DNA from: Nannochloropsis oceanica
Lineage: Eukaryota; Sar; Eustigmatophyceae; Eustigmatales; Monodopsidaceae
Assembly: GCA_004519485.1 (NCBI GenBank)
Contig: CP038131.1
Location: 1,347,108 to 1,411,107, forward strand
Length of the DNA: 64,000 nucleotides
Direction of reading: 5' to 3'
Shown here: one piece after another, positions 8,771 through 64,000 of the stretch
How positions within the stretch are numbered: position 1 is the first letter of the stretch
How the letters are laid out: every line of letters begins with the position of its first letter
Notes under the pieces: generated by a model
Database searches by the model: none
Told to the model about the DNA's origin: nothing
Seen by the model: the letters and a program-made list of their open reading frames with translations, nothing else
Translations under genes and position numbers: made by a program

Positions 8771-11700
8771 CTAGTATTCCAACGCCACGCTTTTCTTCAC
8801 ATCAATCTTACAGAACTTGCCTAAGCCCATGACCACCTCCGGCAGCTCCTCGTCCGTGCGTCCCTCCACGGTGAAGGCGCATTCAAATGCCACGAGCCTA
8901 TGCCATGGAGAGAGGAAGGAAGGAAGGGAGGGAGGGAGGGAGGGAGGGAGGGTAAGAGATAGTGGTCAATGATCAGAGCACCTTGAGACGGGCGAATGTC
9001 CCTCCCTCCTTCCCTTCTTCCCTCTCTCCTTCTATCCCGCTTTCCGCCCCTCGCCCCGACTCTCCCTCTCAACTCGTACTTGAGCTTGTCCTGGAGAATC
9101 TGGATGCCTATTGACAGGAAATAAGATGGAAGAAAACAGGAAAAAAAAACGCGTGAGTGTCTACCGCTCCTGCAGAAAAAGAAGGGGGGCAGGGAGGAAA
9201 GGAAGAGAGGGAGGGAAAGAGGGAGGGAGGGAGATACCTTTGCGGGCCAAATAGGCAAATTTGTGCATGTTGATGTCAATCTCGACGTAATCCTTGCCCC
9301 TGTAGTACTTGGCCGTGTGCTTCACCAGGATGGGCTTGCCGTTGCACTGGAGGAGAGGAGGGAGGAGGGGGGAGATGAAGGGGGGGAAGGGTAAATAGCA
9401 TGAAAGATGCAAACGACTATACAATACCCGTGCGCTCTTTGCACCCACTCTCTCCTTTCCTCCCTCCTTCTCTCTTTCCCAACCTCTCTTATTGCGCGAA
9501 AATCAAGGAAAATTTCAATTCCTTCCGAATCTCACACACTCCAACACCTTTCCCTCCTTCTCTCCCTCCTTGTGTACCTGCGCTATAAACGACGGCAATC
9601 CAAGCTCATCCATGTTTTTACACAAGCAAATTGCCTTGAAGCGCTCGCGCCATTCCAAAGCGAGAGGGGATGGGGTGGCGCCTGGTTGGGGAGGGAGGGA
9701 GGGAGGGAGGGAGGGAGGGAGGGTGAGGTACAGGGACATAGAAGATGTGAATGATTCTGCTTGCCACTGAAGACCTCTAATTCATCGCCTCGCGCCCGCC
9801 CTCACTCCCTCCCTCCCTTCCTCCCTCCCCTCCTCACCTCCATCCACCGGCACTGCATTCCGCATGAACTCGCCGAAGAGCTTCATCCCCGCCGTCATCG
9901 CCACCCCTCCCTCCTTCCCTCCCTCCTCCTCGCCCTTGATGTACGCAAGGGCGGTGTCAGGCTTGATGACGAAGTAGAGTATACAAGACCAGCCGGGACC
10001 GTCCTCTTGCGCGAGGAGGGAGGGCTTCTCCGAGGGAGCCTGAGAAGGGAGGGCGGGAGGGAGGGTTGGGTGAGAGGGAAGGTAGAGGACAAAGGAAAAA
10101 CGGATAAGCACGAGAAAGCAGTTGGACAACCGAAGGCAAACTACAGATTCCTCCCATCCTTCCCTCCCTCTTTCCCCCCCTATTCACCTGCCACGTGACG
10201 ATCAGAGTTTTTGGGATGTGAGCAGGCAGGCCTTCCAATCCCTTCACCTCCGGAAGATCCTGGGGAGGGGGGGAGAAGGAAACGAGTTTGAGGCATGGCA
10301 TGGCATGGCACACAGCCATTATGTATCCCAGGCTGCTTGCGCCCTCCCTCCCTCCCTCCCTCCCTCCCTCCCTCCCTCCCTCCCTCCCTCCCTCCCTCCC
10401 TCCCTTACCTGCACCAAACTTGCGACATGCGAGACCCGGGATGGGGAGCGGACAAAGTCGAAGTTGACGAGCTTGTAGAGAGACGCCGCCGACGGCTCCT
10501 TTTTGCCGCTTTGCTTGTAACCCCGAGCGCGGACCTGGATGGGTAGAGGGAGGGAGGGAGGGAGGGAGGGAGGGAGGGAGGGAGGGAGGGAGGAAAGGGG
10601 GTGGTCAATTAAGCTTGTCCACACGCCACGGACGAGCCAAAAAAAGATCTGCCCTCGCACCCTCCCTCCTTTTCTCCCTCCTTCGTTTCCTCCCTCCTTC
10701 CCTCCCTCCTTCCTTCTCTCCCTCCTTCCCTCCCTCCCCCCTTCCTCACCCTGATATTGCTCGCTAGGCCCGTCGTCCACGTGTGGGGAGGCATCTCGTA
10801 CCCCTCCCCCTCACCCGCCACCTCGGCAGGACAGCGAGGGATGGTGGAGCCCACGGGCGGCATGCGGGAGGGAGGAGGGGCAGCCGTCTTTAGAGGGAGG
10901 GAAGAATGGAAGAATAAAAGGAGGAAGAGGTGAGTCCATGCATTTTGAGTTTACCTTTTCTCCCCTTATTCCTCCCCTCCCCCCCTCCCTCCCTCCCTTC
11001 CTTCCTCCCTCCCTCCTCCCCTCCCTTCTATCTACCATGGTATTCCTCCTCTCCAGCACCGCCGTCCCTCCCTCCTTTTCCTTCATCCATCTCCCTCCCA
11101 TTCCCCCTCCATCTGCGCCTGCGACTGATGCGGCTCCGCCCCTGCTGCGGGCCATTGCCCTCTCTTCCCGTCCTCCGATGAGAGCGACCAGGAAAATGAG
11201 GGGAGACACACACATCCACTGGAGCAGGCTTGATACAGGGCCGGTCAAGGCGCCTTTGAAAGGGGGAGGGGGAGGGAGGGAGGGAGGGAGGGAGGGAGGG
11301 AGGGAGGGAGGGAGGGAGGGAGGGAGGAAAAGAGGATGAGCGTTAAAATGCTGTTTCTTATCGCGAAAATAAAGGAGAGGAAATATTCCTCCTTCCCTCC
11401 CGCCTTACCAGTATACAGAGACTTTGATAATGCCTCTGCAAGAATGAAGTTAATCCCGAGGGTGAGGACGAGGAAGAGGTAGAACGAAGGGGCAACCCGG
11501 AGGAGAAGGAGGAGAAAATTGCACGTTACGAGGATGGCGACGGTTTCTGAAGGGAGTGAGGGAGGGAGGGCGGGAGGGAGGGGCGGAGGGAGAGTGATGG
11601 TAAAAGGACGGTTCTTCAACTTTTGAAGTTATTTTCACTCAGATCCCCGTCTGTCGTCCCTCTCTCATTCTTTCCCTCTTTCCCTTCCCCCCCTCCGGCC

Positions 11701-14392
11701 TTCTCCTTCCCCTTTCTCTCCTCACCTGTCTTGTTCAAGGAGTGCATCATGACGGGAGAAGAGGGAGTAGGATCCGTCTTGGCCTCCACCGCCGCCACCG
11801 CCGCCATCGGGGGATGAAGGGCTGTGCGTGGTGGGACTAGCACTCCCTGCCTCCCTCCTTTACCTCCTCCACCCTCCCTTTTGCCTTCCTTCCCGTCACG
11901 CCGAGAGAGGAAGCCGCTGAGGCTCCGTCGGTTGTGGCCGTGCTTGGAGACATGGCGAGTCGAGGAGGAGGAGGAGGAGGAGGATTCGACGGCAGGGGCA
12001 ATGCCAGAGGTAGCGTCGGTGATTGCCTTAATGGCTTCATCAAGACTGAGCTTGCGGCGGTGGCCTTGAGGGAGGGAGGTAAGGGAGCAGGGCGGGAGGG
12101 AGGAGGGGAGGGAAACAAGATTATGAGGATATGGGTCGGTACTCCGCGTTTTCTCTTCCCCCTCTTCCTCTCTCTCCCTCCCTCCCTCCCTCCCTCCCTC
12201 CCTCCCTCCCTCCTTCCGCCCACCTCCTCCCCCATGGCGCGACCACCCCGAAGAGTCCGTGTCGACGACTCCCTGCACTCCCTGGACATCGCCTGGAACG
12301 ATGGGCTCGCCCAGGTAGGGATAGAGGGCCTTGCACCAATCAATCAGGTCCTCCTGTGTGAAACAAGAGAAACGAGAGCGAGAGAAGGAGGGAGGGCGGG
12401 GGAGAGGGAGAGGGAAAGGAGACGAGAGGATGAAGCAGTGAGTATGAGTGGAAGAAACACCTGTTCATATCCTTCCTCCTTTCCTCCCTCCCTTCCTCCC
12501 TCCCTCCCTCCCTCCCTTCTTTCGTACCTTGGAAGCCGCGCACATCCTCCATTTCTGATCATCCTCCGCGCCATAGACCGAGAAAAAATATTCACTGGGG
12601 GGCTTATCCTGCTTGGAGATGTTGGTCTCGTGCAGCTCGAAGGAAACACCGCGGACGGTCAGGTCAAACACGCCCCTGGAAGGAGGGAGGGAGGGGGGGA
12701 GGGAGAAATGGAGGGAGGGACGGTCCACGGTCCAGTAGGTGGAATGAGTCGCTTCATTGGCATGGAAATCGCAGCCGGAGAGGGAGGAAGGGAGGGAGGA
12801 AGGGAGGGAGGAAGGGAGGGAGGGAAGGCCTTTACCTGGGTTTGCTGCGGTTGTCCACCTCCTCCAGGATCTCCGCCTCGTAGTAACAGAGCTTGCCTTT
12901 GTACAGCGTGAACAACCGCGGCTTCCATCCTAAGAGCCGGCCAATGCCTCCCCTCCGCTTGAAGAGGGTCCCCACCAATTCGTATCCCCCGCCATCCCCC
13001 TGTGCTGGTAACTCCACCACCGCCAGCCGCCCCCCCTCCCGCGGCGACGACGGCAAGAGCCACGGCAATGCCCCATTCCCCACTTCCAGCTGCTCCTCCT
13101 GCTCCTTCTTCTCTCTCTCGCCGTCCTTCCCGCCGCTTTCCACTATCAGCCTCCCACTCCCTCCCCAGCTCCTCGTCTTGGCGTGGTGGCGGTGCCCCTT
13201 CCCTCCCTCCTTATGGCCATTCCCCCTCCTCCCCCTCCTCCTGCGTGATCCCCCCTCGCCCCCACTGCCGTTTCCTTCTCCTCCTCCTCCCACTTTCCTC
13301 CCTATTTCCGTAGCCTCGGCAGTGGAAGCCACCGACTCCGAAATCCCCGACGCGGCGGCGTTCGGAAAGGCCGACGAGGCGAACGCGGCACCAGACATGT
13401 CAATCGAGCCGAAGGGCAGCCCATTGCCCCCTTGAAGCATCCCTACTCCTTCTCCTCCTCCTTGCCCCTCGTACTGTGACTGCTGCTGCGCGATGACATC
13501 ATTGTTGGTCGTGATGGTGTTTTGGTGGTGATGGAGGCCGGCGCTGCCTGTATCAAACGTGTCCGTCCCTTCCCCGTCCTCGCCCTCGTCCTCGTCCTCC
13601 ATTTTTTTCTGTGCGATCGGGTGGACAAGATTGAGCGGTATCAGATTGCGTTTATTGCTGCTACTGTTGCTGCTGCTGCTGCCGTTGTCACCGCTAGCTC
13701 CAAGCCGCGTTGTTTGAATGGGGGCGGGCGAGGGGGAGGCGGAGGAGGCGCGGGATGGGGCGGGGGATGCGGAGGAAGAGGAGAACGCACGCCCCCTACG
13801 ACCATCAGAAATAGCAATAGCTATAGCACTGGCAGCGGCGCATTGGGTATCGTTGATGGAAGGCAGAAAGGTGGGGCTGGTGCTGCCGGTGGTGGTGTTC
13901 TGAGGGGAAGAGGGCAGCGATTCCCATCCGTTCTGTCGACGCCCTGGTCCGCCAATGCTGCTGTTGTCGCTGTTGCTACTGTTAATACTATTGTTGCTGC
14001 TATTACTGCTGTTGCTACTGGTGCTACTGATATTGGTATTGAGGTACGGGGGAGTCAGCATGTGCTCGGCGTCACTGGCCGGGGAGGTGGCGGCACTGCC
14101 GCTGCTTGTGTTGGCGGCCTGTTGGGCATGGATGGTATGTGGGAAGAAGGAAATGGATGATGAAAAGAGAAGATTAGACATCTCGTGTCTCGCAGCGGGA
14201 AGGGTGGGGTCGCGGCGAATTGGTCACAAGCCCGACAGCGTGACAAGACGATCGAGAGGATGAGGGAAGCGACCGAAGGTAACGTAGATGATCAGCAAGG
14301 GCATTCCAATAAGAATTTGAGACGCATTTACATACCTCAGGACTGCCTTGACTGGTAGAACGACTAATCAGGTGCGTCGGGGAGCGAGGCAT
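8771..14392 (-). CDS. PH - transmembrane - EDR2_C (DUF1336) protein
   Basis: A lipid-binding membrane protein related to plant ENHANCED DISEASE RESISTANCE 2. Fifteen exons (14392-14336, 14118-12836, 12675-12528, 12353-12224, 12064-11726, 11546-11409, 11253-11036, 10887-10750, 10534-10405, 10259-10188, 10039-9838, 9681-9576, 9346-9238, 9107-9080, 8897-8771) sum to 1074 aa in frame. Residues 1-400 are Ser/Asn/Gly-rich. A PH domain (GTLFKRRGGIGRLLGWKPRL to DLIDWCKALYPYLG) covers about 400-513 and is split over three exons. Hydrophobic helices lie at about 652-725. The C-terminal third is EDR2_C, with GKPILVKHTAKYYRGKDYVE and the closing FECAFTVEGRTDEELPEVVM. Plant EDR2 has a START domain between PH and DUF1336; here membrane helices occupy that place. 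The ATG at 14392 is chosen because exon 1 is exactly 19 codons with a good GTATGT donor. Confidence 0.88.
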
Positions 14393-19157: not shown

Positions 19158-22100
19158 ATGTCGTATTACGGCCCGGCAAGCGGATTTTCGCCCCCGCCCA
19201 GGGGTGGTGGGGTGGGTGGGGGAGGAGGTGGGGGAGGAGGTGGGGGAGGAGGTGGCAAAAAGAAGAATAAGGGAAGGAAGAAGGGCAAGGGAGGCGGCGG
19301 CGGCGGCGGAGGAGGAGACCAGGGGTGGATGCGGCATTTGCCATCGCATGTTCGCGAGCGGATGGAGTATCAGCACCAGCACCCGCAGTTTGCGCCGTAC
19401 ATGCTCCCGGAGGACAAGGCGGTAGGTGGAGCACAGGAAGGAGGGGAGGCAGAGGTTGGAGGCGGCGACAATTTTTTCCCCTTACGTTCGTAATTCATCA
19501 TCTTCTTCTAAATACACCTACGCAGGCCCGCCGTGAGCAGGAGAAGAAGAACCGGCAGCTGTTCGACGAGAACCCTGGCATTTTGGACATCCCCCTTCGA
19601 GAGGGCGAGGCCTTAAACGCCGCCACCCAGGTAGACAGCCGATTGTCTCTCCTCCTGCATCTTCCCTCTCTTCCTCTCTTCCTCCCTCTCTTCCTCCCTG
19701 CCTCCCTCCCTCCCTCCCTCCTTTCCTCTCTCTCTTCCTCTTTCCCTCCCTCACTCCCTTGCTCCCTCGCTTCCTCTTCCCCTCTCTCCCCCTCTTCCTC
19801 GCTCGGACACGACGGATGCGCTTCTATATCTCGATATCCCCGCCCACCCTTCCTCCCCCCTTCCTTCCTTCTCTCCCTTTTTCCCTCTCACAGGTGGTAT
19901 CGGCCGATATGCATGGACGAGGGCGCTTCATTGATTTTTATGACCCTGCCGAGGAGGACCGGAAGGAGAGTCTGAGGGAGGGCGCGAAGGGAGGAGTGAA
20001 GAAGGCCGCCGAGCTGGACAAGGAGGGAGATGTCGTCATGGGCGATGAGGAGGAGGAGGAGGAGGTAGATAGGGAAGGAGGGAGGAGGGAGGGGTAGAGG
20101 TCTCATCTGGTAGCCTCGGAAGAAGGGGGATATGAATTTTGCCACAAAGAAAACGGACACTCAACCCCCTCCCTCCCTCCCTCCCTCCCTCCCTCCCTCC
20201 CTCCCTCCCTCCCTCCGTCCCCGTCCCTCTGCCTGCAGGTGGAAGATGGCTACGAGGAACGCGAGGGCCTGCACCCGCTGGCCGAGGCGATGCTGCGGCA
20301 CCACCAGGCCAAGCAGGGACGGGAGGAGTACGAGCGGATGCAGGTAGGTAGGGAGGGAGGGAGGGAGGGAGGACGAGAGGGGGAAGATCGAGTGATTTTC
20401 AACCTTCCAGTCCAGCCACCTTCTAATGCTGCCATCTGCTCACATCTCGCTTCCTCCCTCCCTCCCTCCCTCCCTCCGTCCCTCTAGACGTCCCGGCGGA
20501 AGCTCCCCGCCTGGTCTCTGCGGGAGAGTATTATTTCCACCGTGAGGAAGCATCAGCTCGTCGTCATTTCCGGGGAGACGGGCTGCGGCAAAACCACGCA
20601 GGTTCGTCTCTTCCCTCCCTCCCTCCCTCCCTCCCTCCTAGCCCCTTTGGTGAGCACCCAACCGTATTTCCTCCCTCCCTCCCTCCCTCCCTCCCTCCCT
20701 CCCTCCCTCCCTCCCTCCCTCCCTCCCTCCCTCCCCCAGGTCCCCCAATTCCTGCTGGACGACGCCATCCACGCGGGCAAGGGCCATGAGACGCACATCA
20801 TCTGCACGCAACCGAGGCGCATCTCCGCCATCGGTAGGGAGGGAGGGAGGGAGGGAGGGAGGGAGGGAGGGAGGGAGTGTGTGGTCGAGGCCATGAAAGA
20901 CGGGCTGAGGAGGGAGGGAGGGCGGGCGGGAGGGAGGGAGGGAGGGAAAAGCAACGAATGAATCACCACGCACACACGCTAACTTCCCTCTCTCCCTCCC
21001 TCCTTCCTTCCTTCTCTCCAGGCGTGGCGGAGCGTGTGGCCAGCGAGCGGGCGGAGGCTGTGGGGGAGATGGTCGGCTACCAGATTCGGCTGGAGAAGGT
21101 GGGGAGGGAGGGAGGGAGGGAGGGGGGAGAAGGATGGCCTTTTGACAATCCACTTACCGTCCACGCCGCCTCCTTGCGCCCCTTCCTCCCTCCCTCCCTC
21201 CCTCCCTCCCTCCCTCCCTCCCTCCCTCCAGATGGCGCGCGAGGAGACGACGAAGCTCTTATTCTGCACCACGGGTATTCTCCTCCGGAAGCTGCAGCTC
21301 AACCCCCTCCTCAACGGCATCAGTCACATCATCCTCGATGAGGTTCGGTCCCTCCCTCCCTCCCTCCCTCCCTCTCTCCCTCCTTCGTTACCTCTTTCTT
21401 CGAATGCTTCGGACGGCACTATCCCTCCCCTACTTATGTCTCGATTTATGACCCCATACACCTCTCCCTCCCTCCCTCCCTCCCTCCCTCCCTCCCTCCC
21501 TCCCTCAGGTCCACGAGCGCTCCTTAGAGAGTGACTTCCTCCTCATCATTCTCAGGGACGTGCTTCCTTCCCGCCCCGACCTTAAGGTGAGAAATGGAGG
21601 GAGGGAGGGAGGGAGGGAGGGAGGGAGGGAGGGAAGGAAGGAAGAAGAAAGATGCCGAGGCCGATGGTTTGATTTATTGTAGACACACTCACATTCCCTC
21701 CCTCCCTCCTTCCTTCCCTCCCTCTTTCCCTCCCTCTCTCCATCAGGTCATTCTGATGTCTGCGACTATGAACAGCCACATGTTCGCCTCGTACTTCACC
21801 TCCTCTTCCTACCATCAAGACCTACGGACGGCGGGGTAAGATCCGAGGGAGGGAGGGAGGGAGGGTGGGAAGGAAGTGAAGATGGCACATAACGTAATTT
21901 CAGTCGCTTATGGCTACTCTTCCCTCCCTCCCTCCCTCCCTACCTCATATCAGCGCGCACCTCCCAGCCCGACCTCCCTCCCTCCCCCCTCCTCCTCCTC
22001 CCTCGGGGAAAGACGCTTGGAGCGACGAGGACGATCCTCCCTCCTTCTCCTCCCTCGGCCCTCCCTCCTCCTCTTCCTCCTCCTCCTCCCGCTCCTCCCG

Positions 22101-25100
22101 TTGGTCTCCCTCCCCGGCCTCCTCCACCCGCCCCAGCGCCCCTCCCTCCCTCCCTCCCCCCCGTCCCCCCTCCATCGTCAAGAGCAAGGGAGGGGGCGTA
22201 GTTGACGCGGTGCCCATCGTGGAGATACCCGGATTTACACACCCCGTGCAGCAGTTCTTCCTAGAGGATGCCTTAGAATGGACTGGTAGGAGGGAAGGAG
22301 GGAGGGAGGGTGGATGTGCTTCTTTTCTACTCATCCTGTGCAGCAATGGACTGATTCGGACCTGGCTTCCCTCCCTCCCTCCCTCCCTCCCTCCCTCCGA
22401 CGCCACCTCAGCTTACCTCCCTCCCTCCCTTCTTCCCTCCCTCCTCCCTCCTTCCCTCCGACGCCCTTTCAGTTTACATATGCCCTTGCTCACCTCTTCC
22501 TCCCTCCCTCCCTCCCCCCCTCCCTCCCTCCCTTCCTCCCTCCCTCCAGGCGTGGACCTGAAGGCCGAAATCATCGCCGCCGCCATCGGGGGACGAGGTG
22601 GGGGCTACTCCTCCTTCTCCTCCTCCTCCTCCTCCTCCTATCCTTTCTCCTCCTCCTCCTCCTCCTCCTCCTACCCTTCCTCCAACGGGCGTGGGTCCGC
22701 GGCGGATTTTGCGGCTCAGCGGCGGAAGAAGATGAAGCTGGCCAAGATGGAGGACGGATATCAAGAACGCTTGGCAGTGATGAGGAGCGAGCAGGGACGA
22801 GGCTACAGGTAGGGAGGGAGAGAGGGAGGGAGGGAGGGAGGGAGGGAAGCAGAGTGTCTAAGCAGACTCATACGCGTCCGATGTTTCTCGCTCTACTACT
22901 CGCATCATCATAAACCTGACGTTTCTCACTTTACCACTCGTATCACTCACAACCCTTCTCCTCGATGTTTCTCGCTCTACTCCTCTCAGTCTTCGCACCC
23001 TCGAGTCCATGGCCGCCTTCGACGAGGACGAGATCCCCCACGTCTTGATCGAAGGTTAGCAGCCAGCCCTTCCTCCCTCCCTCCCTCCCTCCCTCCCCCC
23101 CTCCCTCCCTCGCTTCCTCCAGTAGTAAGCCATCCTCATGCTCCTTTCATACACCTGGAAACCCCACCCCACCTTTCTCTCCCTCCCTCCCTCCCTCCCT
23201 CCCTCCTTGCAGCCCTCGTCCGCAAGATCGACCATGAGGAAGGTCCAGGCGCCATCCTCATCTTCTTGCCCGGGTGGGAAGACATAAGCAAGCTCCACGA
23301 ATCCCTCCAGCGGCTCCCACAGGTAGGCAAAGAGAGAGGGAAGGAAGGAAGGAGGGGGGGAGGAAGAAAGGGTGAGAGGAGGGGATTCTTCAAGTGACCT
23401 TACCCACCTTCTTTCACCACGCTCCCCCTCCCTCCCTCCCTCCCTCCCTCCCTCCCTCCCTCCCTCCCGCAGGCCCGTAACTGGCGTCTCTATCCCCTTC
23501 ATTCCCAGCTTCCCATGGACCAGCAAAGGGAGATCTTTGCCCCTCCCCCTCCAGGCCTCCGGAAAATCGTCCTCGCGACCAACGTGGCAGGTGCATGCCC
23601 CCCCTCCCTCCCTCCCTCCCTCCCTCCCTTTCTTTGTTTTTTCCTTTCTTTCTTCCTTTCCTTCTTTCTTTTATGCCTCCTCCCTACCCCTTTGAATCGC
23701 TCCTGTTCCGAGATCCACCTTCTGTCTGTTCTCAAGCCCTCTCTTTACGTTTCCTCCCTCCCTCCCCCTCTCCCCATCCCCTTACCTCAGAATCCTCCAT
23801 CACCACGTCTCCTCATCTTGTTTCCTCCCTCCCTCCCCCTCCCTCCCTCCCTCCCCCTCCCTCACCCTCTCTCCCCGTCCCCTTCAGAGTCCTCCATCAC
23901 CATCGACGACGTCGTGTTCGTCCTGGATGGGGGCAAGCACAAGGAGAAGACCTACGACGCCGAGAAGAAGGTCAGGAAGGGAGGGAGGGTGAAAAGGCGG
24001 GCGGGATGCCATACAACGGTCTATCTTCCGGGTATCCTCCCTCACACATTCTTCCTGCCTTACAGCTGTGCATGCTCCTCCCCGCCTGGGTCTCTCGTGC
24101 TAGCGCCATCCAACGGAAAGGTACCTCCCTCCCTCCCTCCCTCCATCCATCCCTCCCTTCCTTCCTTCCTCCCTCCCTTCCTCCCTTCCTCCCTTCCTCC
24201 CTCCTTCTCCCCCTTCTTCCCTCCCTCCCTCCGGCCGTCCCGTTTACGCGCAGTCCTGCATACGGTCGAGCCGTTTAAATCCCTGGTCATTCTCCCCCTT
24301 CCTCCCTCCCTCCCTCCCTCCCTCCCTCCCTCCCTCCCTCCCTCCCTCCCTCCCTCCCTCCCTCAGGCCGAGCGGGTCGAGTGCAGCCCGGCAAGTGCTG
24401 GCACTTGTTCCCTCGGAGGAAGTTCGAGCTGGACCTGCCGCCTTTCCAGCTCCCGGAGATTGTGCGCACGCCCCTGGAGAGTCTGTGTTTGTCGGTACGG
24501 AGGAGGGAGGGAGGGAGGCATGGAGGGAGGCACGGAGGGAGGCACGGAGGGAGGGAGGGAGGGAGGGAGGGAGGGTGCGACATGGCTTGGCAGTGATGTT
24601 TCTCAACTCCCTCCTCCACGACGCACCGACCTGCCCGCGCTCATCCTCCCCTTCTCGCCCCCTCCCTCCCTCCCTCCCTCCCTCCTTCCCTTTGTCAGGT
24701 GCGTGCCCTGGGCGTGGCTCGCAAGGGCCGCGGGGGCATCGTCGAATTTCTCCAAAAGGCGGTGACTCCTCCCACCGACACGGCCATGTCCAACGCCCTC
24801 GAGCTCTTGCTGCATATTGGTACGCACCCCTCCCTCCCTCCCTCCCTCCCTCCCTCCCTCCCTCCCTCCCTCCCTCCCTCCCTCCCTCCCTCCCTCCTTC
24901 CCTCCCTCCCTCCCTCTTTGCCCTTGCTCTATCTGCGCGCCTCGCTTTCGTCCGTTTTGAGGATCGGAGGTTTCCTCTCTCCTCTCTCCCTCTTTCTTTC
25001 TTTCTTCCCTCCTCTATTCCTTCGTTCGTTGAGACGCAGAATTCTACGGCTTCTCCCTCTAATTTCTTTCTTCCCCACCTCCCTCCCTCCTTTCCTCCCG

Positions 25101-49087: not shown

Positions 49088-49119
49088 CTAAAACCCTTAA
49101 CCCTAACCCCAGCCCTAAC
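49088..49119. repeat. Interstitial telomere-like repeat
   Basis: Plus strand reads CTAAAACCCTTAACCCTAA then CCCCAGCCCTAA: degenerate copies of CCCTAA (TTAGGG on the minus strand). It directly abuts the 49120-49287 duplication. Confidence 0.8.
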
Positions 49120-49287
49120 AGGAGGCGGACGTGGAGCTGGAGATGTCAGACTTGGTGCGACAGAAGATGCTGGTCACGAAGGCTTGCATTCTCTTATTAG
49201 GGCAGTGCGGCCAGGCGCGTAAGCGGAGCGTGCGGCTGCTTATTAATGGTGTGTGTCGGGGTTGGGAGAGTTCCCTTTTCGTAGAGG
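49120..49287 (-). pseudogene. Truncated copy of the first exon and 5' flank of the vWA gene
   Basis: 168 bp identical to 51796-51963 except one base (49264 G versus 51940 A). It contains the ATG and the first 23 codons of the vWA gene (MQAFVTSIFCRTKSDISSST and on) and about 98 bp of upstream flank, in the same orientation as the source. At its coding side it stops abruptly and joins telomere-like repeat. No splice donor or further exon follows, so it cannot make the protein. Confidence 0.92.
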
Positions 49288-49559: not shown

Positions 49560-51865
49560 TCACCTATACTCCCTTTGAAGGCTCTGGGCTTTGCGGACCA
49601 ACCGTCGAATTTGATCGATCGAAATCTCCTCTTCCGCCACCTCGGCCCTCCCTCCCTCCCGCCCACCAGCCCTTCCTCCTCCTCCTCCAGCACCAACCGT
49701 GGCACATGCCGTAAGCGAGTACGTATGCGTGGGGGAGAAGAGGGGGGCCGGGAGGAAGGGGGAGGAGGAGGAGGAGACGGAAGAGGAGCATGGAGTAGGA
49801 ACCACAGTCCGTGGAAATGTATCGGTCGCTTCAGTGTGGGAGGCCGAAAGCTCCTTCTCCCTGCTCCGAGGAAGACCACCTCTTTTCGGCGTGGCTTCTG
49901 CGGACGGTATCTCAGTAGCAGCAGTAGAAGTAGGGGTGGCTGCACCAACAGTAGTCGTAGTGGTAGCAGCAGCATGAGTAGGAGCAGCACGAACAGTAGG
50001 AGCGGAAATAATACCACCGCCTCCCCGTCGGGAAATGAGGTCTTGGACCATGAGTCGTCCGCAACCTCGTCCTCCGCCCTTTCCTCCCTCCCTCTCTCCT
50101 TCCCATCCTACACCTGAAGTCGGCATTGACGACGAATTGTCCGCTTCCCAACGCATGTCTACAGGGGCAACCGCCTCCGCCGCAGACACAAACGACCTAC
50201 TCGACAGGCCCGTCGATATCGATACCCTCTCCCCGTTTTCCTCCTCTACCTCCCTCGCTCTCTCGCTCCCCAACCTCCTCTTCGCCTCCTCAAGGGAAGA
50301 GCATGACGCAATCACCTCAGTTTGAACTGACGTCATCCTCCTCATGTTTGTCTTTAACTGCCTTGTTCTAGTCCCTTTCCTCCTCAACGCCTCCTTAACC
50401 CTCGCCACCCACACATCTTCATCCTCCTCTTCCCCTGCCTCCCTCCCTGCCTCCCTCATCACCTCCCTCACCTCCCTCTCCAGTTGTGTCAGCCCCACCT
50501 CCTCCTGCGCCCCCGCTAAAATAACAGAAGCCAACAGACTCGCACTCTCCAGTACCAAGGCCTGCCCTCCCGTTGCCTCCGCCATAAAGATCAATATATC
50601 CTTACAATTCTCATAGGTGGAAATGGCGGGTTCACACCCCACAGTATAGAGAGTAATGCCGCAAGCTGCGAGCTGTCGAGTCAAAGCGAGAGGGTCATGA
50701 TGGAGAGGGCAGCCATTTGGAAAACCGTCTTCACGCTCTCCCAATCCGTGAGGGGGAGCATCGGCAATGAGCACAGCGACTTTGCTTGTCTGGATCGAAG
50801 GGGAGGAGGAAGGAGAGGGAGGGAGGGAGGAGCGCCATTCAAGATGAAGGAGGTCGTACAGGGCGTCCGCCATGGCTTCGGGACCGTCACCTCCGCCTTC
50901 AGCCGTTATGCTGTTTACGTTGTCGGTGATGGTTGGTAGGTGGGAGGTGAATGGGAAGACCCGCGTCACGTAGGAAGAGTCCTAGGAAGGGAGGGAAATA
51001 AGGAGGGAGGGAGGGAGGCAGGCAGGGAGGGTGAGCAGGAAGAATAAGGACACAACAGAGGAAGAGGCTCTTTCTACAGGCGAGAGGTGGAGAATGCTGA
51101 GATACGCATATATATATACCCTCTCTCTTCTCCCAACACATTTTATTACGGACTGAAACACACACACTACCTGTGGAGCATGATCTCGGTAAGAGATAAG
51201 AGCAAAGCGGACAGAGACCCCGTCATCGCAGGCCAGGCGGGTGATGATGCCGTGGATGCTCTCTTGCGCTGCTCGGATGTAGGCATCCATTGAGCTCGTA
51301 GAGTCAACCTGTGAGTGAGGGAGAGGGGGAGGGTCGAGCGAGACGCAGGTTTCAATACAGAAGGAGGAAAGCCCTTTTTTCTGCCTTCTTCGCCAGTACC
51401 TTTTTTTGCCTGTCTTTCCTCCCTCCCCCACAAACGCACACACATGTTTATCTCAACCATGCACGTACCACAAATACCAGGTCAAGCTGCGGGACATCCT
51501 TCATTGCTTCCTTTTCCTTCGCACTTTCGGTGATGCACGCATTGCTGAGCGCTGTAGCCACAGTATCTTCGTCGTCCTCCTCGTCCTCCCCCTCCTCGTC
51601 CTCCTCCTTGTTCAACACTTTAGGAAAGGAAAAAGAATACGTATCTGTTGTTGGGAGGAAGAATAAGGTGAAAGGGATGAAAAAACGCATAAAAGGATAT
51701 ATAATAAAGGCGCATGTACTCACCTGTCGTCGAATTTACGTCTGTGACGGTGATGGGAATGGGTGGCCGAGGAGGTTTGTCAGACACGGCAGTGGAGGAG
51801 GCGGACGTGGAGCTGGAGATGTCAGACTTGGTGCGACAGAAGATGCTGGTCACGAAGGCTTGCAT
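49560..51865 (-). CDS. von Willebrand factor A (vWA) domain protein
   Basis: Four exons (51865-51724, 51617-51469, 51308-51171, 50981-49560) sum to 616 aa. After a Ser/acidic N-terminus the vWA domain starts at about residue 92 (LDLVFVVDSTSSMDAYI), with a metal-ion-dependent adhesion site of the D-x-T-x-S type: Asp99, Thr101, Ser103. It continues with VRFALISYRDHAP, PFTSHLPTITDNVNSITAEG and GGGDGPEAMADALYDLLHLE, the pattern of vWA domains in the alpha-kinase (VwkA)-like group, then SKVAVLIADAPPHG and CGITLYTVGCEP. No kinase domain follows; the rest is charged coiled-coil-like then Ser/Thr/Ala/Gly-rich. Probably cytosolic, binding a partner through a divalent metal; partner unknown. Its 5' end is duplicated at 49120-49287. 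Divergent from the 52586 gene. Confidence 0.85.
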
Positions 51866-52585
51866 TCTCTTATTAGGGCAGTGCGGCCAGGCGCGTAAGC
51901 GGAGCGTGCGGCTGCTTATTAATGGTGTGTGTCGGGGTTAGGAGAGTTCCCTTTTCGTAGAGGAGGTACGAAAGGTGTGCCAATTAAGCTTGTGTCAGTG
52001 ATATTGTTTGGAGGTAAAGCGGTGCATGGCATACAGGTGTGATATTTTTCGTTCTATGTCGCGAAGGCGACGCTGTCAAAAAGGAGCGGGATCCCGGCAA
52101 GATCCGAGTCCCCGCCCCAGCCCCGGACATACCCGGCTGAAAAGGCACGGCCTCTCTTTTTTTCTTTGCACTTACCCATTTGAAACTTGTCTTGTGCGTC
52201 TCCGTCACCTCAGCAGGCCGATAATGCCTTCGTGTACAATGGGGCATCACAATGGCACAGCCGGTATTCAGTGTTTTTGAGAACATCCTTGTCTGAGTGG
52301 GCATGTGCTTGGCGAGATGTGCCTTGCGTTGGAGAGCCTGAAGCGAGTAGGCGAGTCCCAGTCACATGCTATCTGTCCCCAAGCTGGATTGGCTGCCGTA
52401 CGGTGTTTGCACCTACGCTGGTCACATTTGTGCTCCAATCCGGAGTAATCTTGGAGTGCAGGGCTCCACCTCCCTGCTCGGGTGCCGAAGTCGCCCCTAC
52501 CCTTGATTTGACTTCATATGCATAGCAAGCATTAAGAAAGCTGATTCCTTCTCCTTCCCTCCTTTCCCCCTCCACCTTTTCCAGG
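51866..52585. other. Divergent promoter region
   Basis: 720 bp between the vWA gene and the low-complexity protein gene; its proximal 98 bp (to 51963) are the source of the duplicated 5' flank at 49190-49287. A CCTTTTCCAG acceptor-like sequence ends just before the ATG region at 52584. Confidence 0.5.
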
Positions 52586-54286: not shown

Positions 54287-54319
<33 letters not shown>

Positions 54320-55921: not shown

Positions 55922-58900
55922 ATGGCAGCACGTCGCTTTCTCGTGCCGCTTTCCCTATGCCTGGCGGCCGCCCGCGCCTTCCTTGTGGTGCCGCCACAGG
56001 TAAGGAGGGAGGAAGGGAAGACGGGCAGGATGATGATGGTAAAGCAGTAACGGGGAATTTAATCCCTTTAGCATTGGCATCATGTGTCCTCGTCCCTGAC
56101 CATATCCTTTTCCCTCCTCCTGCCTTACTTGTGCAGTCTGTCCTCAAGGCTGGAGATGTGGTCTCGATACCGGCACCCTTTTTTTCCTCCCCTCCCGCAA
56201 TGCAGCAAGGGGGAAGGACGAAGGGGGCTCTCTTCTCCCTTGTTATCAACCCCAAGCGACAAGGTGAGGAGGGATATTAAAATGGAAGAGGAGAAGAATG
56301 ACAACCCCACATTTATAAGCAGGAAGAAGATTAGATATGTACATGTCAATGAGGCACATATCCCTTGAATGTGTATTGCTTCTCTGTCATCGCAGTGCCA
56401 AGTAAAGGGGGAAGGAGACAAGAGAGAGAGAGAAAAGTAGGAAACAGCCGGTCGAGTCACAACACTTATAATGTGAGACACTTCCTCAAATGACGAAACT
56501 GCATGGCAGGCATCTCCCAGCTGGGGATCGAGGAGATCAAGGCCAAAAAGGCGTTGTTGATGGTAAGGCTCGGTCGGGAAGGGAGGGAGAGAGGGAGGGA
56601 GAAGGAGGGAAGGACATCATCGATCCAAGACCTGTCAGCACATTTTTCCTCTTTCTCCTCTCCGATTGCTCACCCCTCTCTCTTCCTTCCTTCCTTCCCT
56701 CCACCTCCCTCCCTCCCTCCATTTCTCCTCGCAGGCCCCGTCCGACCTGCAGGGGGCGGTGCTCGTATCCGGGTCCTTGGAGGAGGAGGTATTCACACTC
56801 TTGAACGAGCAGCGGGTGTGGAACCGGATCACGGCTTTTGCGGCCGATGCTGTTTCGGTGAGTAGGCGAAGGAGGGAGGGAGGGAGGAGGGGGGAAGGGA
56901 GGAAGGGTGAAGGGAGGGAGGGGGAAGGGAGGAAGTGAGGAAGGGAGGAGGGGAGGGAGGGAGAAGGGGAGCGAGGGAGGGGGAGCGAGGGTGGGGGAGA
57001 GGGGGGGAGGGAGAGAGTGAGGGAGGATGGGAGGTAAGAGAAAAGGCACATATATACACACGTAGACATCATGCCCACACAATCGTAACCTCTCTACACC
57101 CCCTCCACGCTATCCCTCCCTCTCCCTCTCCCTCTCCCTCCAGGCCCGGAAGCGTTTGACTTCGCGCGCGACCCGATACTCGGGTGTGTTGGACATGCTG
57201 AACCTGGAGGAAGGCGACCCGCATGACTTGGGCGTGCTGGAGGTAGGGAGGGAGGGTGGGAGGGAGGAAGAGAGGGAAGGAGGCGGCCCGCATAACTTGA
57301 GCGTGCTGGAGGGAGGGAGGGAGAGAGGGAGGGAGGGAGGGAAGGAGGGAAGGAGGGAGGGAGCATTTCTGTGAATCGGTGACGGCATTGGAGTGTCAGT
57401 GAGAGAGACCGCGTACAAACACCTCACTCACTTCCTCTTCCCGCCGACAAACACTCCACTCATTCCTCACTCTTCCTCCCTCAACTCACTCACTCTCTTC
57501 CCCTTCCCATCTCTTCCCTCCCTCCCTTCCTCCCTCCAGAGCTACCTCTCCTCCAAGCCGTATTCTGCTTGGCTCGACCTCTCGCCCGAAGACGCAGACG
57601 AGACGCGTCTGCTGGCCAAGGCCAAATTGGCAGCTGCCACAGGCATAAAGTTTTTCGTAACGGCCGTGTCCATGTCCCAGGCAAGGCTGGAGAAGCAGGA
57701 CCTGGATTTGGAGGCGGTGGAGAAGGTGAGAAGAGGGGAGGGAGGGAAGAAGGGAGGGAGGGAGAGGGGGAGGAGGGAGGGAGAGAGACTCTGGAGTCGG
57801 TCGAGGGGACATGTCCAAGAGCACCTCCTATTTTTTTTCTTTGTTCTCATTCCCGTGTTTGTCCCCTCCCTCCCTCCCTCCCTCCCTCCCTCCTTCCTCC
57901 TTCAGGTTCTCCGCGATGCCGGAATCAAATTTCGAATTCTCGTTACGGGTCAAGTCATCCCTGCCCCTGCCACAGTACGTCCCCTCCCTCCTTCCCTCAC
58001 TTTCCCCCTCCCTCCACTCCCTGTACCTTTCACGTACTTCCTTTCGTCTTCGCCCGCCCTCCCTCCCGCCCTCCCTCCCTCCCTTCTGGCCCCGTCCTTC
58101 CCTTCCTTTCACTCCCACTCCCCTCTCTCCTCCCCTTACTCCTTCCCGCCCTCCCTCCCTCCACCTCAGGGATACGTCCGCCTGAACGACACTGAGGCCC
58201 TGTTGCCCAACGCCACCATCGCCCGTGGGGACTTGGCTCGCATTGCCACCGAGCTTTTCCTCGTGGCAGACGAGAAACCGGAAGCCGGCGTCATCTACGG
58301 TACTTCCCTGCTTCCCTCCCTCCCTCCCTCCCTCCCTCTCTGTGTGGGTCCCCCACTCCCTCCCCTGCCCTCCCTTCCCCCCTTGCCTTCATTCATGACA
58401 TACTTCCTCCCGTCTCCCTCCCTCCCTCCGTCCCTTCCTCCCTCCTTCCCTCCTTGCCTCTTCCCCTCCCTCAGCCTCGGAGGGCGACGAGAGCGTGGTG
58501 GGCTACCTCAAATACTGCCGCGAGCAGGGCATGAACTACAAGACCGAAATCACGGACCAGCTCGCCGGGGGCCTCTACACGTACAAGGATAAGGTGGCGG
58601 CCACTATGCAGGTAGGGAGGGAGGGAGGGAGGGAGGGAGGGAGGGAGGGAAATATGGAGGGAGAGAGGGAGAACTGACTTGAATGCGGTCCACCGTCCGA
58701 GGAGATGCATCCTCTCAACCCTCCCTCCCTCCCTTCCCCCCTCCCTCCCTCCCTCCTCCCAAGGAAATGGCCGACAAGGCGGCGGGTGTCCTGGCCAAGG
58801 GTGCAAAAAAAGACACGGAGCTCTACGCCGCCTACCGTGTTAATGTGACCAAAGCAGCCATTGCCACCGAGTACGACAAGAAACGCCGGACTCTTGTGGT

Positions 58901-60502
58901 GCGGCCCTCCCTCCCTCCCTCCCTCCCTCCCTCCCTCCCTCCCTCCCTCCCTCCCTCCCTCCCTCCCTCCCTCCCTCCCTCCCTCCCTCCCTCCCTCCCT
59001 CCCTCCCCTCCCTCCCTCCCCTCCCTTCCTCCCTCCCTCCCGTTGGCACCCCCCTCCCCATCATTCCTCTTCTATCTCGCGCTGTTCAAAAAACGCTCAT
59101 CCCGTATCCTCCTTCCCTCCCTCCCTCCCTTCCTCCCTCTCTCCCTCCCTCCCTCCTCCCCAGGGGATGGTGAAAAAGATCGTGGGTGATATCTTAGAGG
59201 AGGAGTACGACGACATGTACTACTCCATGCGCACTAAGGAAGACCTCGACCTCTACAAGAAGGCCAACTGGTACGTCCCCCCCCCCCCTCCCTCCCTCCT
59301 TCCCTTCCTATTCTCCCTCTCTCTTCCGATGTATCTCATGTTCTTTGTTATGTTATATTTCGTATGTATTGACATCCTATCGTATCTACCTATTCAGGCA
59401 ACGGGCCGTGAATCTGGTGCTGGGAATGCTCATGGGGAAAGGCGAGGAGGCCGGGGGCCGCGACAAGGTAGGGAGAGAGAGAGGGGAGGAGGAAGGGAGG
59501 GAAGACTAGGAGAAAGAGTGAGAGTAAATAAAAGTTGAAAAGGAAAGGTCTTTTAAACTCGCTCCCCCCCTATCCCCCTTCCTCAGGCATCGCAGCGTCT
59601 GACGGGCTTTCAGGATCCGTACCTCGGTCCTCAGTGGCACATCATCCGCAGCAACGCCGCGGTCATGATCAAGATCAAGTAAGGCCCGGCCTGGGAGGAC
59701 ATGAAGGGAGGGAGGGAGGGAGGGAGGGAGGGGGGAAAAAGAGTAGAGGTACAGAGAGAATGGGAGGGAGCGGAAAGGTAGGAGGGGAATATGCATGAGG
59801 GAGGGATGGAAGGAAGGGGGGGCATGCGGCATGACGTGTACTTACTCTCTCCCTCTCTCCTCTTCCATTTTCTCTCTCCCTTTCTCTCCTTCTTTCCCAC
59901 GTACACCCACCACGACCACAGAGAGCTCCACGACGAGATCGGAGAGCGTCTTACTAAGGAGGATTGGGAGCGGTACGTGCCCCCCCCCTCTCTTTCCCCT
60001 TCTCGCTCCTCTTCTTCCTTCCTCCCCTCCCTCCCTCCCTATTGATTCGGCCAGCGGAAGAAAGGGCAAGCCTCCTTATCCTTTCCCTCCCTCCCTCCCT
60101 CTCTCCCTCCCTCCCTCCCTCCCCCCCTCCCTCCCTAGCTATGATATCCTGGAGGGCGACTTCATGGGCGACGAAGAAGCCGTCATGACCATGAAAATCG
60201 AAGAGAAGACGAAACGAAACAAGGATTATTTGCGCGAAACCCTAATTGCCCCCCCGCGACGCAAAGCCTCCCTTATCGTGGAGGTGGACGAAATCGATTC
60301 CTACCGCACGGCGTTGCTGGAGTCGGGCGCAGGGAGGAAAGGTGCTCTTCCTTCCCCGGCAGCGGACAAGGAGGAGGTGGAGGCGAGGAGCGTCGTGGTG
60401 GAGGTAGTGGACGAGGGCGGGAAGGAGGGAGAGGAATTGGCGGTAGCAGCGGCGCCGACGAAGAGAGGCAGGAAGCGCAAGACGGCCGAAGGGGAGGAGT
60501 AA
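55922..60502 (+). CDS. Plastid-targeted orphan protein, 15 exons
   Basis: About 608 aa assembled from 15 exons starting near 55922, 56137, 56510, 56735, 57145, 57541, 57906, 58170, 58475, 58764, 59164, 59399, 59587, 59922 and 60139, with phases that agree at each split codon I checked (TAC-G/CC, TG/G, AA/A, CG/C). Exon 1 is a signal peptide with the junction AARA/FLVVPPQ: a heterokont plastid presequence. The body is a soluble alpha/beta-looking protein: GIKFFVTAVSMSQARLEK, AGIKFRILVTGQVIPAPAT, VVGYLKYCREQGMNYKTEIT, TEYDKKRRTLV, DDMYYSMRTKEDLDLYKKAN, LTGFQDPYLGPQWHIIRSNA. The end is acidic/basic low complexity. No family is recognised; it is not a release factor despite a superficial resemblance. 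A start at the exon-3 ATG (56503) is possible but would lose the presequence. Confidence 0.72.
57212..57317 (+). repeat. Degenerate tandem copy of an exon 3' end and its splice donor
   Basis: 57212-57249 (end of exon 5 plus GTAGGG donor) is repeated 69 bp downstream at 57281-57317 with four substitutions. In the second copy the GT of the donor has become GA. Confidence 0.8.
58903..59040 (+). repeat. Longest (CCCT)n array in the window
   Basis: About 138 bp of almost pure CCTC tetranucleotide repeat in one intron of the plastid orphan gene, immediately after the donor GTGCGG. Confidence 0.95.
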
Positions 60503-61420: not shown

Positions 61421-64000
61421 TCACCCCTCTAACCCTTCCATACTCCCTAAAATCGTCCTCAGCTGCTCCTTCTTCTCCGCCAGTGCCTGCTTTGTCGACT
61501 CCACCAACTCGGGCGGAGCCTTGGACAGGAACGCCGTGCCCGACACTCGTTTTTCCAACCCCTCAATCTCTCCTTGCAGCTTCGATGCCTGCTTTCCCAG
61601 TCGCTCCTTCTCCTTCTTCGCATCTACAAGATCTGCCAAGGGCAAATAGCACTCCAATCCGTCCTCGACAATCAGACGGACGGCCTTCCCTCCCTCCTTC
61701 CCTCCCTCCACCTCTTCGATACCCCCCACCGAAAGCTTGCCCCCATCAATCCTTCCCAGGAGCGCCAGGACGTCTCGCTCGACCTCTAATTTGGCGCGAA
61801 AGCCGGGATCGGCGACCTGGATCATCGCGGCCACTTTCTTGCCGGGCTCCACCTTAGAAGAGGGAGGGAGGGAAGGAGGGAGGGAGGGAGGGAGAGGAGG
61901 AGGGGTATGGCGGGAGACACAGTATGAGCGCGATTATATTCCAGGCATTTCGGGTTCGAAATGGCAGTACATTCTACTTCATCCCCTTCCCTCCCTCCCT
62001 CCCTCCTTCCTTCCCTCCCTCCCTCCCTCCTTCTTTCCTTCCCTCCCTCCCTCCCTCCCTACCCTGTACTCGGCCCGAGCGTTTCGAATGGCGCGCACCA
62101 GGGCCTGCAGCTTGCGAAATTGTACGATGGCCTCCGTATCCACGTACAGTCTGTTTGTGTCGGGTCAGTAAATCAGGAAACACGAGTCGTACGACGTTGT
62201 GATTCGGTGTCAAGGCCCCACCCTCCCTCCCTCCCTCCCTCCCTCCCTCCCTCCGTTCATCCTTGCATGAAACGTCACATTCCTCCCTCCCGTTCGTTTC
62301 GTCGAGTCTCCTTCTGCTCCTCCCTTCCTACAGATCTCCCCCCCTCCCTCCCTCCCTGTATGGGCCAACCTCTCCTCCCCCTCCTGTGGCCAGGGGGCGA
62401 CCATCAACGCCTGTCCCTCGTGCGGGAGCTCTTGCCACAACACCTCAGTGATGTAAGGCATGAACGGGTGGAGCAGCCGGAGGCACGTGTCAAACACGTA
62501 GACCAGGACCCGCCGCGTCGTGGCAGGGGGCGAGGAGGAAGTGGAGGAAGAAGGGGGAGAGGAAGGGGGGGAGGACATGCGGGTTTTGCTGGCCTCGATG
62601 TACCAGTCGGCGTATTCATCCCACAAAAACTGATAGACCAACTGGCCGGCGTCACCCTGGAGGGAGGGAGGGAGGGAGGGAGGGAGGGAGGGAGGGATGG
62701 AGGGAAGGAGGGGGAGGGGGGTTGAGATTCTTCTTCGTGCATTCTTGTATCCATGTGCCTTGCCTCCTGCCACCCTTCCCTCGCTCGCTCCCTCCCTCGC
62801 TCCCTACCATGTCATAGTCCTCCAATCCGCTCGTGACCTTGGAGACGAGCTCGTGGGCCAGTGAGATGATGTACCGCTCGGGGAGAGGGAGGGCTGCAGG
62901 GAGGGAGGGCGGGAAGGAAGGGAGAAAAATTGTGTGATTCGTTCCTCTCCTTCACGCATGCTGAAGGGCTATGGAGGACTGGAGGGAGGGAGGGAGGGAG
63001 GGAGGGTGGGAGGGAGGGCGGGGTACGTGCCTTCGATCTCTTGGCGAGTCAATCTGGTCTCAGGCGTAACGGCCAATGATTTAAATTCCTCAGTCGGCAG
63101 GCCCTTGAGGTTCCTGGGAAAAGGGAGGGAGGGAGGGAGGGAGGGAGGGAGGGAGGGAGGGAGGGAGGGAGGGAGGGAGAGTCAGCGACGAGTCACATGC
63201 GCAATACCCCGAACTCCGACCCCCCCCCTTCCCTCCCTCCCTCCCTCCCTCCCTCCCTCCCTCCCTCCCTCCCTCCCTCCCTCCCTCCCTCCCTCCCTCA
63301 CCCAATCAGGAAGCGGCCGGCATTCCAGAGTTTGTTGGCGAAGTTTCTGTTGGCCTCCACCTTCTCCATCGACAGGGGCACGTCCTGCCCTGGGGTGACG
63401 CCCGTCACCAGAGAGTAGCGGAGGGCATCCGTGCCGTACCTAGGGAGGGAGGGAGGGAGGGAGGGAGGGAGGGAGGGAGGGAGGGAGGGAGGGAGGGAGG
63501 GAGGAGAGAAACGTGAGTACAACATCGATTAGTTCGGTGTGCCGAGGTCATGCCTGGCCCATACGGCAATCGTCCATGTCCCCCCTTCCCTCCCTCCTTC
63601 GCTCCCTCCCTCCCTTTCTCTCCCTCTTTCCCTCGCTCCCTCCCTCCCTTCCTGCTCACTTTTCGATCGTATCGATGGGATCGATGACATTTCCCTTCGT
63701 TTTGCTCATTTTTTGCCCCTGCCCGTCACGAACCAAGCCGTGCATGTAGATCACTTCGAAGGGGGATTTGCCTGAGGGAGGGAGGGAGGGAGGGAGGGAG
63801 GGAGGGATCGAATGGATCAGCATCTCGCTTGCTCATCCATTGCCTTGCTTTTCCAACCTGCCCCTCCCTCCCTCCCTCCCTCCCTCCCTCCCTCACCGGT
63901 AAACTGCAGGCCCATCATTACCATCCGGGCCACCCAAAAGAACAAAATGTCGTAGCCTGTTTCCAGGCACGTGGCGGGATAGAACCGTTGGAAGTCCCCC
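61421..64000 (-). CDS. VARS: Valyl-tRNA synthetase, 3' portion (partial)
   Basis: Charges tRNA-Val; class I synthetase. The gene enters from the right edge, so the HIGH motif and editing domain are outside. Visible in order: [20 protein letters not shown] (64000-63897), [20 protein letters not shown] with the KMSKT catalytic loop near 63700, [20 protein letters not shown] (63440-63301), [15 protein letters not shown], the anticodon-binding helices ([40 protein letters not shown] at 62660-62360), [18 protein letters not shown] (62160-62065) and the C-terminal tRNA-binding coiled coil (61853-61421; [20 protein letters not shown]). The order and motifs match bacterial/eukaryotic ValRS. Compartment cannot be judged without the N-terminus. 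About nine exons are seen. Confidence 0.93.
63122..63299 (-). repeat. Self-complementary intron: (GGGA)n and (CCCT)n arms
   Basis: Plus-strand (GGGA)n at about 63124-63180 and (CCCT)n at about 63230-63299, separated by roughly 48 bp, fill one ValRS intron. In the transcript the GGGA arm follows the 5' splice site and the CCCT arm precedes the 3' splice site. Confidence 0.92.

Follow-up and report, generated by a model that had tools for sequence, protein, structure and literature searches.

Oriented GGGA and CCCT repeat arrays at intron ends of the alga Nannochloropsis oceanica

Nannochloropsis oceanica is an oil-making alga with a genome of 29,264,788 bases in 32 contigs. We analysed a 64-kb stretch that reaches a contig end (C5:1347108–1411107, hereafter the window), in which predicted genes for a DEAH helicase, an EDR2-like (PH-domain) protein, PRORP, a HERP-like protein (the gene name used in an earlier note on this DNA) and ValRS are split by introns carrying arrays of one tetranucleotide, read as GGGA after the donor and as CCCT before the acceptor. 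This GGGA-5′/CCCT-3′ direction is real in N. oceanica introns.

Predicted introns and their ends

All introns were predicted computationally, from sequence alone. The noncoding model of the gene finder was identical on both strands, and GT or GC at the start and AG at the end were its sole requirements of an intron; a refined version also scores the three exon positions ahead of the donor, the base immediately upstream of AG and the two exon positions that follow the acceptor. The sample comprised the window and 28 ten-kilobase regions (L001–L025, placed at round positions 200–600 kb into contigs, and L027–L029), together 344 kb of 29.3 Mb; one further region (L026), from a U1 search, is left out of all counts. 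The refined gene finder returned 283 introns in the window and L001–L025, 176 of them confident (73 in the window), meaning that their splice sites are good and each flank shows a clear coding signal. The three later loci added 37 confident introns from 55, for an overall total of 213. Array thresholds of 10, 12, 14, 16 and 20 nucleotides (nt) were used, and for the window class counts an array is a run of at least 12 nt within 80 nt or half the intron. The Pfam domains to be expected were recovered in six predicted proteins or protein excerpts (helicase C-terminal domain, ValRS anticodon domain, PH, PRORP, asparaginase and THOC2), with the DEAD match falling just under its cut-off.

A series of such introns lies in the DEAH-helicase gene on the plus strand (ends here and below from the gene finder unless another source is given). 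Its first listed intron (20065–20238) has a GGGA-type purine tract after the donor and a CCCT array before the acceptor, and GGGA..CCCT introns follow at 20344–20487, 20834–21021 and 21099–21231. Two others carry CCCT at both ends: 20602–20739, for which a hairpin is impossible, and 21343–21508, between the coding pieces IILDE and VHERS (donor from the refined model, acceptor placed by hand). A GGGA..CCCT intron ahead of the ILMSAT exon (21587–21746) was missed by the gene finder and has both ends placed by hand. Further along the plus strand lie an intron with a 5′ GGGA array and no CCCT array (22809–22989), GGGA..CCCT introns at 24495–24698, 25616–25726, 57243–57539 and 58612–58763, and one with CCCT at both ends (58899–59163).

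On the minus strand, the EDR2-like intron (10535–11035, refined model) has a transcript-sense CCCT array adjoining its acceptor at 10535. GGGA..CCCT introns occur at 12065–12223, in the PRORP gene at 36116–36268 and in the PRORP part of the gene model at 37640–37789. The HERP-like intron (41089–41425) has GGGA at its donor and a CCCT array 23–58 nt before its acceptor, and another intron (42785–42956) pairs a 5′ GGGA array with an imperfect 3′ pyrimidine tract. ValRS has three such introns: 61853–62062 (GGGA..CCCT) and 62657–62807 (imperfect 5′ GGGA, 3′ CCCT), both placed inside the Anticodon_1 domain by hand exon mapping, and 63114–63301 (GGGA..CCCT).

The earlier note had named arrays in several of these introns, and they are found there. 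The gene finder returned exactly its introns after 20064, 20343, 20833 (given as 20834) and 21098 and those of PRORP and the HERP-like gene. Its ValRS intron (63122–63299) is present as GGGA..CCCT with modelled ends at 63114–63301; its EDR2-like intron (10535–10749) keeps the exon end at 10534 in the refined model (10508 in the first) and runs on to 11035; and the gene finder overlooked two helicase introns of the note (after 21586 and 21835), whose donors were confirmed by hand from the sequence and the DEAH-helicase exon translations.

Polarity of the arrays

Among the 73 confident window introns, arrays of at least 12 nt are arranged as GGGA..CCCT in 14, GGGA only in 11, 3′ CCCT only in 10, CCCT at both ends in 12 and 5′ CCCT only in 2, with none in 24 and a 3′ GGGA array in no intron. 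In total 25 have 5′ GGGA, 36 have 3′ CCCT and 14 have both; the reversed order is absent, as it was from the introns resolved in the earlier note, which held that polarity follows transcription. Orientation is thus strongly unequal in the window, and it stays so at 10 nt (5′ GGGA 31, 5′ CCCT 15, 3′ GGGA 2 and 3′ CCCT 43; the same order of ends is used below). The three later loci gave 18, 12, 1 and 24 in their 37 introns at 10 nt (two of these loci, L027 and L028, each contain one donor+GGGA match from the whole-genome listing described below), and all 213 introns gave 50, 31, 5 and 65 at 12 nt. One intron in 213 has GGGA and CCCT swapped at 10 nt. CCCT arrays at both ends form a sizeable class (20 of 213 at 12 nt). 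The polarity of GGGA is weaker in array-poor loci (9, 4, 4 and 10 in 71 introns at 10 nt), and an unfiltered first pass over 226 sample introns, false ones included, gave 18 with 5′ GGGA and 15 with 3′ GGGA at 12 nt.

Coverage of the window introns by GGGA is 0.203 in the first 60 nt, 0.025 in the middle and 0.004 in the last 60 nt, an enrichment separate from the polypyrimidine tract, and coverage by CCCT is 0.092, 0.058 and 0.263; the two units combined cover 0.018 of intergenic and 0.011 of exonic sequence. Neither of the outcomes named in the earlier note as refuting its claim, equal orientation or no enrichment outside the polypyrimidine tract, thus occurred in the window. A rerun in which purine and pyrimidine tracts of at least 12 nt gave the gene finder no information regained, with identical ends, 94 of the 137 confident introns from array-rich loci; its 93 unfiltered window introns gave 28, 10, 3 and 34, with one reversed. 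Because polarity persists in this rerun, we reject the explanation that it arises from circularity in the gene finder. Some array introns may be coding tracts called as introns, since 20 of 117, as against 5 of 96 array-free introns, could be read through with no stop or frame change; these read-through introns were taken out of the intron-density analysis.

Genome-wide counts and chromosome-end clustering

String counts independent of gene models agree with this polarity. GGGAx4 followed by CCCTx4 at 41–70 nt has 887 matches on one strand and 911 on the other, and the opposite order has 103 on each (overlapping registers are counted, and the two strands largely see the same places). The donor+GGGA string CAGGTAGGGAGGGAGGGAGGG has 131 matches genome-wide versus 9 for its reversal, and the acceptor+CCCT string CTCCCTCCCTCCCTCCAGGT has 39 versus 1. 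Donor+CCCT, in three spellings, occurs 2, 3 and 20 times, and GGGA ahead of an acceptor-like end once (reversed control, 8).

Positions were available for 100 of the 131 donor+GGGA matches, of which 99 on C1–C22 were used and one on C23 was left out. Of these 99 listed matches, 57 fall within 100 kb of a contig end (17.5 expected, p = 7e-19), 80 fall within 250 kb (43.8 expected) and none is more than 400 kb away (69 expected inside that distance); when the matches are merged into 78 clusters of 20 kb, the 250-kb zone holds 60 of them (34.5 expected). The acceptor+CCCT string, with 32 of its 39 matches used (C1–C22), has 26 within 250 kb (14.1 expected), 10 within 100 kb (5.7 expected, p = 0.044) and one 525 kb in. 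This reveals a new feature of the listed donor arrays, that they cluster near chromosome ends, to which repeat-rich contigs placed at scaffold ends could add. Three extra regions 35–96 kb from ends comprised two that are array-rich, each containing a listed donor match, and one that is poor.

Two side observations concern the distribution of the arrays. The density of the donor+GGGA matches listed rises from large to small chromosomes (2.6 per Mb on C1–C6, then 3.9, then 5.5 on C13–C22). One array-rich locus, L023, differs from the other rich loci in that its GGGA is nearly one-stranded (6.5 versus 0.2 16-mers per kb) and 80% of it is predicted coding.

Relationship between the two intron ends

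Complementary repeats at opposite ends, present at 12 nt in 23 of the 213 confident introns, 14 of them among the 73 of the window, could in principle pair, and the earlier note had proposed that such arms bring the splice sites together. We folded introns of 110–500 nt from rich loci: at least 10 end-to-end pairs appear in the minimum free energy structure of 23/23 GGGA..CCCT introns, 19/21 with GGGA only and 14/17 with 3′ CCCT only, compared with 10/31 without arrays and 1/17 with CCCT at both ends. The pairing is therefore easy in silico; the arms themselves are not matched within introns. With 3′ ends permuted within each locus across the 213 introns, 5′ GGGA and 3′ CCCT co-occur at chance at 12 nt (23 observed, 22.1 expected), 14 nt (18 and 17.4) and 16 nt (14 and 13.5) and not significantly above it at 20 nt (10 and 7.0, p = 0.115), although a modest effect could escape this sample size. 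The duplex formed by an intron's own ends is no better than that of swapped partners (mean −34.0 versus −32.7 kcal/mol, n = 127, p = 0.13), and arm lengths are uncorrelated (ρ = 0.11, and −0.30 among 25 introns with both). Pairing across the exon, between a 3′ end and the 5′ end of the next intron, matches pairing within the intron (−41.6 versus −39.4 kcal/mol over 60 window pairs, positive duplex energies being set to zero in this analysis). CCCT..CCCT introns, whose ends are unable to pair, exceed chance at 12 nt (20 versus 13.1, p = 0.0016), an excess for which long arrays in short introns may account in part.

These results bear on the proposal that an end-to-end hairpin of donor GGGA and acceptor CCCU has been selected to join the splice sites and define the intron. 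Ready folding of GGGA..CCCT and single-array introns, the near absence of reversed order, a co-occurrence excess at 10 nt (quantified below) and the precedent of fish introns, whose complementary (AC)/(GU) repeats at opposite ends can pair into a hairpin according to the reviews PMC7404189 and PMC9198270, all speak for it. The chance-level co-occurrence at longer thresholds, the uncorrelated arm lengths, own duplexes not significantly better than swapped or across-exon ones, an excess of CCCT..CCCT introns that fold end to end in only 1/17, and the presence of a U2AF large-subunit gene speak against it, and we consider a selected hairpin unlikely. In its matched-arm form it is unsupported at 12 nt and above by partner swaps made overall, within gene and within locus and by the length correlation, the 10-nt excess remaining. 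By predicted energy, hairpin pairing is possible and likely, but none of these results establishes pairing as the target of selection.

Intron density in array-rich regions

We compared the density of confident introns per coding kilobase in 36 blocks, divided into terciles of array-intron density. From the low to the high tercile at 10 nt, array-bearing density climbs (0.04, 0.34, 2.1) and total density with it (0.38, 0.79, 2.52), while array-free density is flat (0.34, 0.45, 0.42; ρ = 0.12, p = 0.49); the array-free values at 12 nt are similar (0.46, 0.46, 0.59). A new observation at 10–12 nt is thus that nearly every surplus intron in array-rich regions bears an array. This is a hint of an added population of array-bearing introns, although intron-rich regions with more arrays would look the same.

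On one reading, array introns are an extra class in chromosome-end regions, gained through the arrays or shielded by them from loss. Flat array-free density beside climbing array-bearing density favours it, but at 16 nt array-free density rises too (0.38, 0.61, 0.81; ρ = 0.44, p = 0.007), and the flatness at shorter thresholds could be a coincidence of more introns with a higher array fraction. Nor do the introns share sequence outside the tracts: with tracts masked, two matches of 18–19 nt were the only shared interior sequence among the 213. A junction target-site duplication of at least 6 nt marks 1 of the 117 array introns and 3 of the 96 without arrays, phase 0 accounts for similar shares (64% versus 55%), and GT follows the acceptor in 22 of 117 versus 9 of 96 (p = 0.078). 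Introners and gain by tandem duplication, as candidate sources, are rejected on the lack of interior similarity and of junction duplication. We regard the extra class as very doubtful. Also very doubtful is the related conjecture that array introns form a population of their own, younger than the rest, which the (GGGA)/(CCCT) microsatellites created or maintain, as growing polar repeats near chromosome ends turn coding sequence into intron. Were it true, the repeats would supply both a G-run donor context and a ready pyrimidine tract, with intron density about six times higher and array-free density nearly unchanged (10–12 nt), and the low-complexity filters of introner surveys would hide such introns.

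Composition beneath the arrays

The polarity extends to introns that carry no array. In 38 array-free introns of array-poor loci (no run of at least 10 nt), there are 99 GGG triplets in the first ~60 nt and 7 in the last (p = 1.5e-5), and CCC triplets number 31 at the 5′ end and 102 at the 3′ end (p = 8.7e-4); across all 58 array-free introns GGG counts are 145 and 26. From the 5′ end through the middle to the 3′ end, GGGA words of 6–7 nt follow the same course in poor loci (5.6, 1.41 and 1.17 per kb) and rich loci (7.65, 1.93 and 0.38), and CCCT words of that length the opposite one (poor loci 1.4, 3.41 and 8.4 per kb). The arrays are therefore located where their seed words already occur. 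Sense-strand G-quadruplex (G4) motifs of the G3 type are found at the 5′ end of 51/137 rich-locus introns and the 3′ end of 2/137, with 21.2 expected from base-shuffled 5′ ends, and in poor loci at 9/76 and 4/76 (shuffled, 2.2), the control being a single-base shuffle only. A U2AF large-subunit gene was identified (302.5 bits, E = 2.6e-89, positions 171–510 of 510, slightly under the family cut-off of 310.3) and the 5′ end of U1 small nuclear RNA (snRNA) is standard (ATACTTACCTG), so a normal U1/U2AF reading of these intron ends is available.

On balance we lean towards the reading that the microsatellites grew on a directional splicing composition and act as independent signals: G-runs, which may form G-quadruplexes, at the 5′ end and a C/U tract at the 3′ end. 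It is preferred because of the genome-wide and the array-free polarity, the seed words, the independence of the two ends, the 5′ G4 motifs and the presence of U1 and U2AF. Introns in the 344 kb studied, array-free ones included, have a composition that is G/purine-rich past the donor and C/pyrimidine-rich ahead of the acceptor. Short GGGA and CCCT words would then have grown by slippage into arrays in the intron-dense regions at chromosome ends and been retained where they suited splicing. The 5′ GGGA array would serve as a G-run intronic splicing enhancer able to form an RNA G-quadruplex (rG4) with one-base loops, and the 3′ CCCU array as the polypyrimidine tract that U2AF, or some other C/U-binding protein, recognises. 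By analogy with work elsewhere, a splicing role for the 5′ arrays is likely and G4 formation possible: PMC9065059 reports a 5.56-fold enrichment of G4 motifs at 5′ splice sites on the non-template strand, and PMC11927685 describes inhibition of splicing when the 5′ rG4 of mirtrons is disrupted. The two intron ends would be set largely independently, and end-to-end hairpins would be a by-product in many introns, one that may help but is not what the sequence was selected to match.

Several results weigh against this reading. At 10 nt, 5′ GGGA and 3′ CCCT co-occur above chance in the pooled introns (40 versus 34.5, p = 0.049) and in the window alone (24 versus 18.7 within gene, p = 0.006; longer thresholds not significant). 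Arrays in rich loci are more polar than short words (GGGA 5′/middle ratio 7.3–15.5 versus 3.9, a two- to fourfold extra), which could mean selection beyond seeding, and in poor loci GGGA runs of 10–13 nt number 8 at the 5′ end and 6 at the 3′ end. Donor scores are the same with 5′ GGGA (3.16) as with neither array (3.01, p = 0.90), and compensation of weak donors by 5′ GGGA is rejected on that ground. CCCT at both ends is a common arrangement, and a 5′ GGGA array is therefore not required. Finally, the intron excess of array-rich regions is unexplained by expansion inside a fixed intron set.

A rival account is neutral slippage, in which splice-proximal composition supplies the seeds and slippage lengthens them with no selection on the arrays and no function. 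Seed words that are polar like the arrays, the uncorrelated arm lengths and the repeat spectrum of the window fit it: AGGG is the only common simple sequence repeat (SSR) class raised there (116 in 64 kb versus 88 in 250 kb), with AGC at 10 versus 37, AGG at 6 versus 32 and the rare AAG at 3 versus 1. General microsatellite instability at the chromosome end is rejected, since no common SSR class other than AGGG shows an increase. Neutral slippage is harder to reconcile with arrays more polar than their seeds in rich loci, or with six intergenic arrays in 9.1 kb there against 48 in 22.2 kb of intron middles, a small sample in which constraint on untranslated regions and promoters may contribute. 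Because intergenic arrays are rarer than intron-middle arrays, regional slippage alone fails to explain the preference for introns, and we judge slippage without function to be quite improbable. The earlier note had suggested slippage under selection for the pyrimidine tract; its slippage half fits better, and tract selection alone cannot explain 5′ GGGA.

Other features of the regions studied

A direct repeat of 168 nt, 99% identical, occurs in the window at 49120–49287 and 51796–51963 (starts 2,676 nt apart), flanking a predicted minus-strand gene at about 49564–51690; the pair may represent a duplication or a small element with terminal repeats. A short interstitial telomere-like sequence (ccctaacccc...) lies just before it, at about 49094–49121 of this subtelomeric window. 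On C18, about 1 kb from the U1 snRNA, which was the single U1 match reported, are two predicted tRNA-SeC (TCA) genes (L026:378–464 and 552–638, starts 174 nt apart).

Comparison with known systems

We found no description of GGGA/CCCT intron ends in Nannochloropsis in the literature searched, most subscription papers lying outside its coverage. The arrays amount to a natural experiment on what intron ends need, with one tetranucleotide on opposite strands at the two ends of many introns in a small genome. Introns with both arrays, one, CCCT at both ends or none coexist, making the choice between a hairpin and independent signals directly testable in a transformable alga, and the bias of the arrays towards chromosome ends, together with the surplus of introns that bear them, links microsatellite growth to intron density.

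Introners, as surveyed in PMC9860276, resemble the array introns as possible surplus introns with common end sequences in an alga, but the N. oceanica introns have neither a shared interior nor a target duplication. That survey filtered out low-complexity, microsatellite-like families and would for this reason not be expected to report array introns. The fish AC/GU introns, as presented in the reviews PMC7404189 and PMC9198270, resemble the array introns in placing hairpin-capable microsatellites at opposite intron ends. The unit here is GGGA/CCCT, co-occurrence is not above chance at 12 nt and above, and many N. oceanica introns carry CCCT at both ends; the fish type is associated with splicing without U2AF2, and a U2AF large-subunit gene is present in N. 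oceanica. Vertebrate mirtrons with a 5′ rG4 arm (PMC11927685, which reports 5′ rG4 enrichment in vertebrate mirtrons only) share a G-rich intron 5′ end complementary to the 3′ end. The 25 window GGGA..CCCT introns at 10 nt differ from these in being 111–487 nt long (median 174).

The G4s and G-runs at 5′ splice sites in PMC9065059 are alike in that sense-strand G3 motifs concentrate there and the 5′ end is the more strand-biased. Sense G4 motifs are enriched at the 3′ end too in that work and nearly absent there in N. oceanica (2/137); its G4s are associated with weak splice sites, whereas donor strength is not lower here, where the G4s are predicted motifs. The stramenopile N. oceanica also differs in using a single tetranucleotide microsatellite, clustered at chromosome ends.

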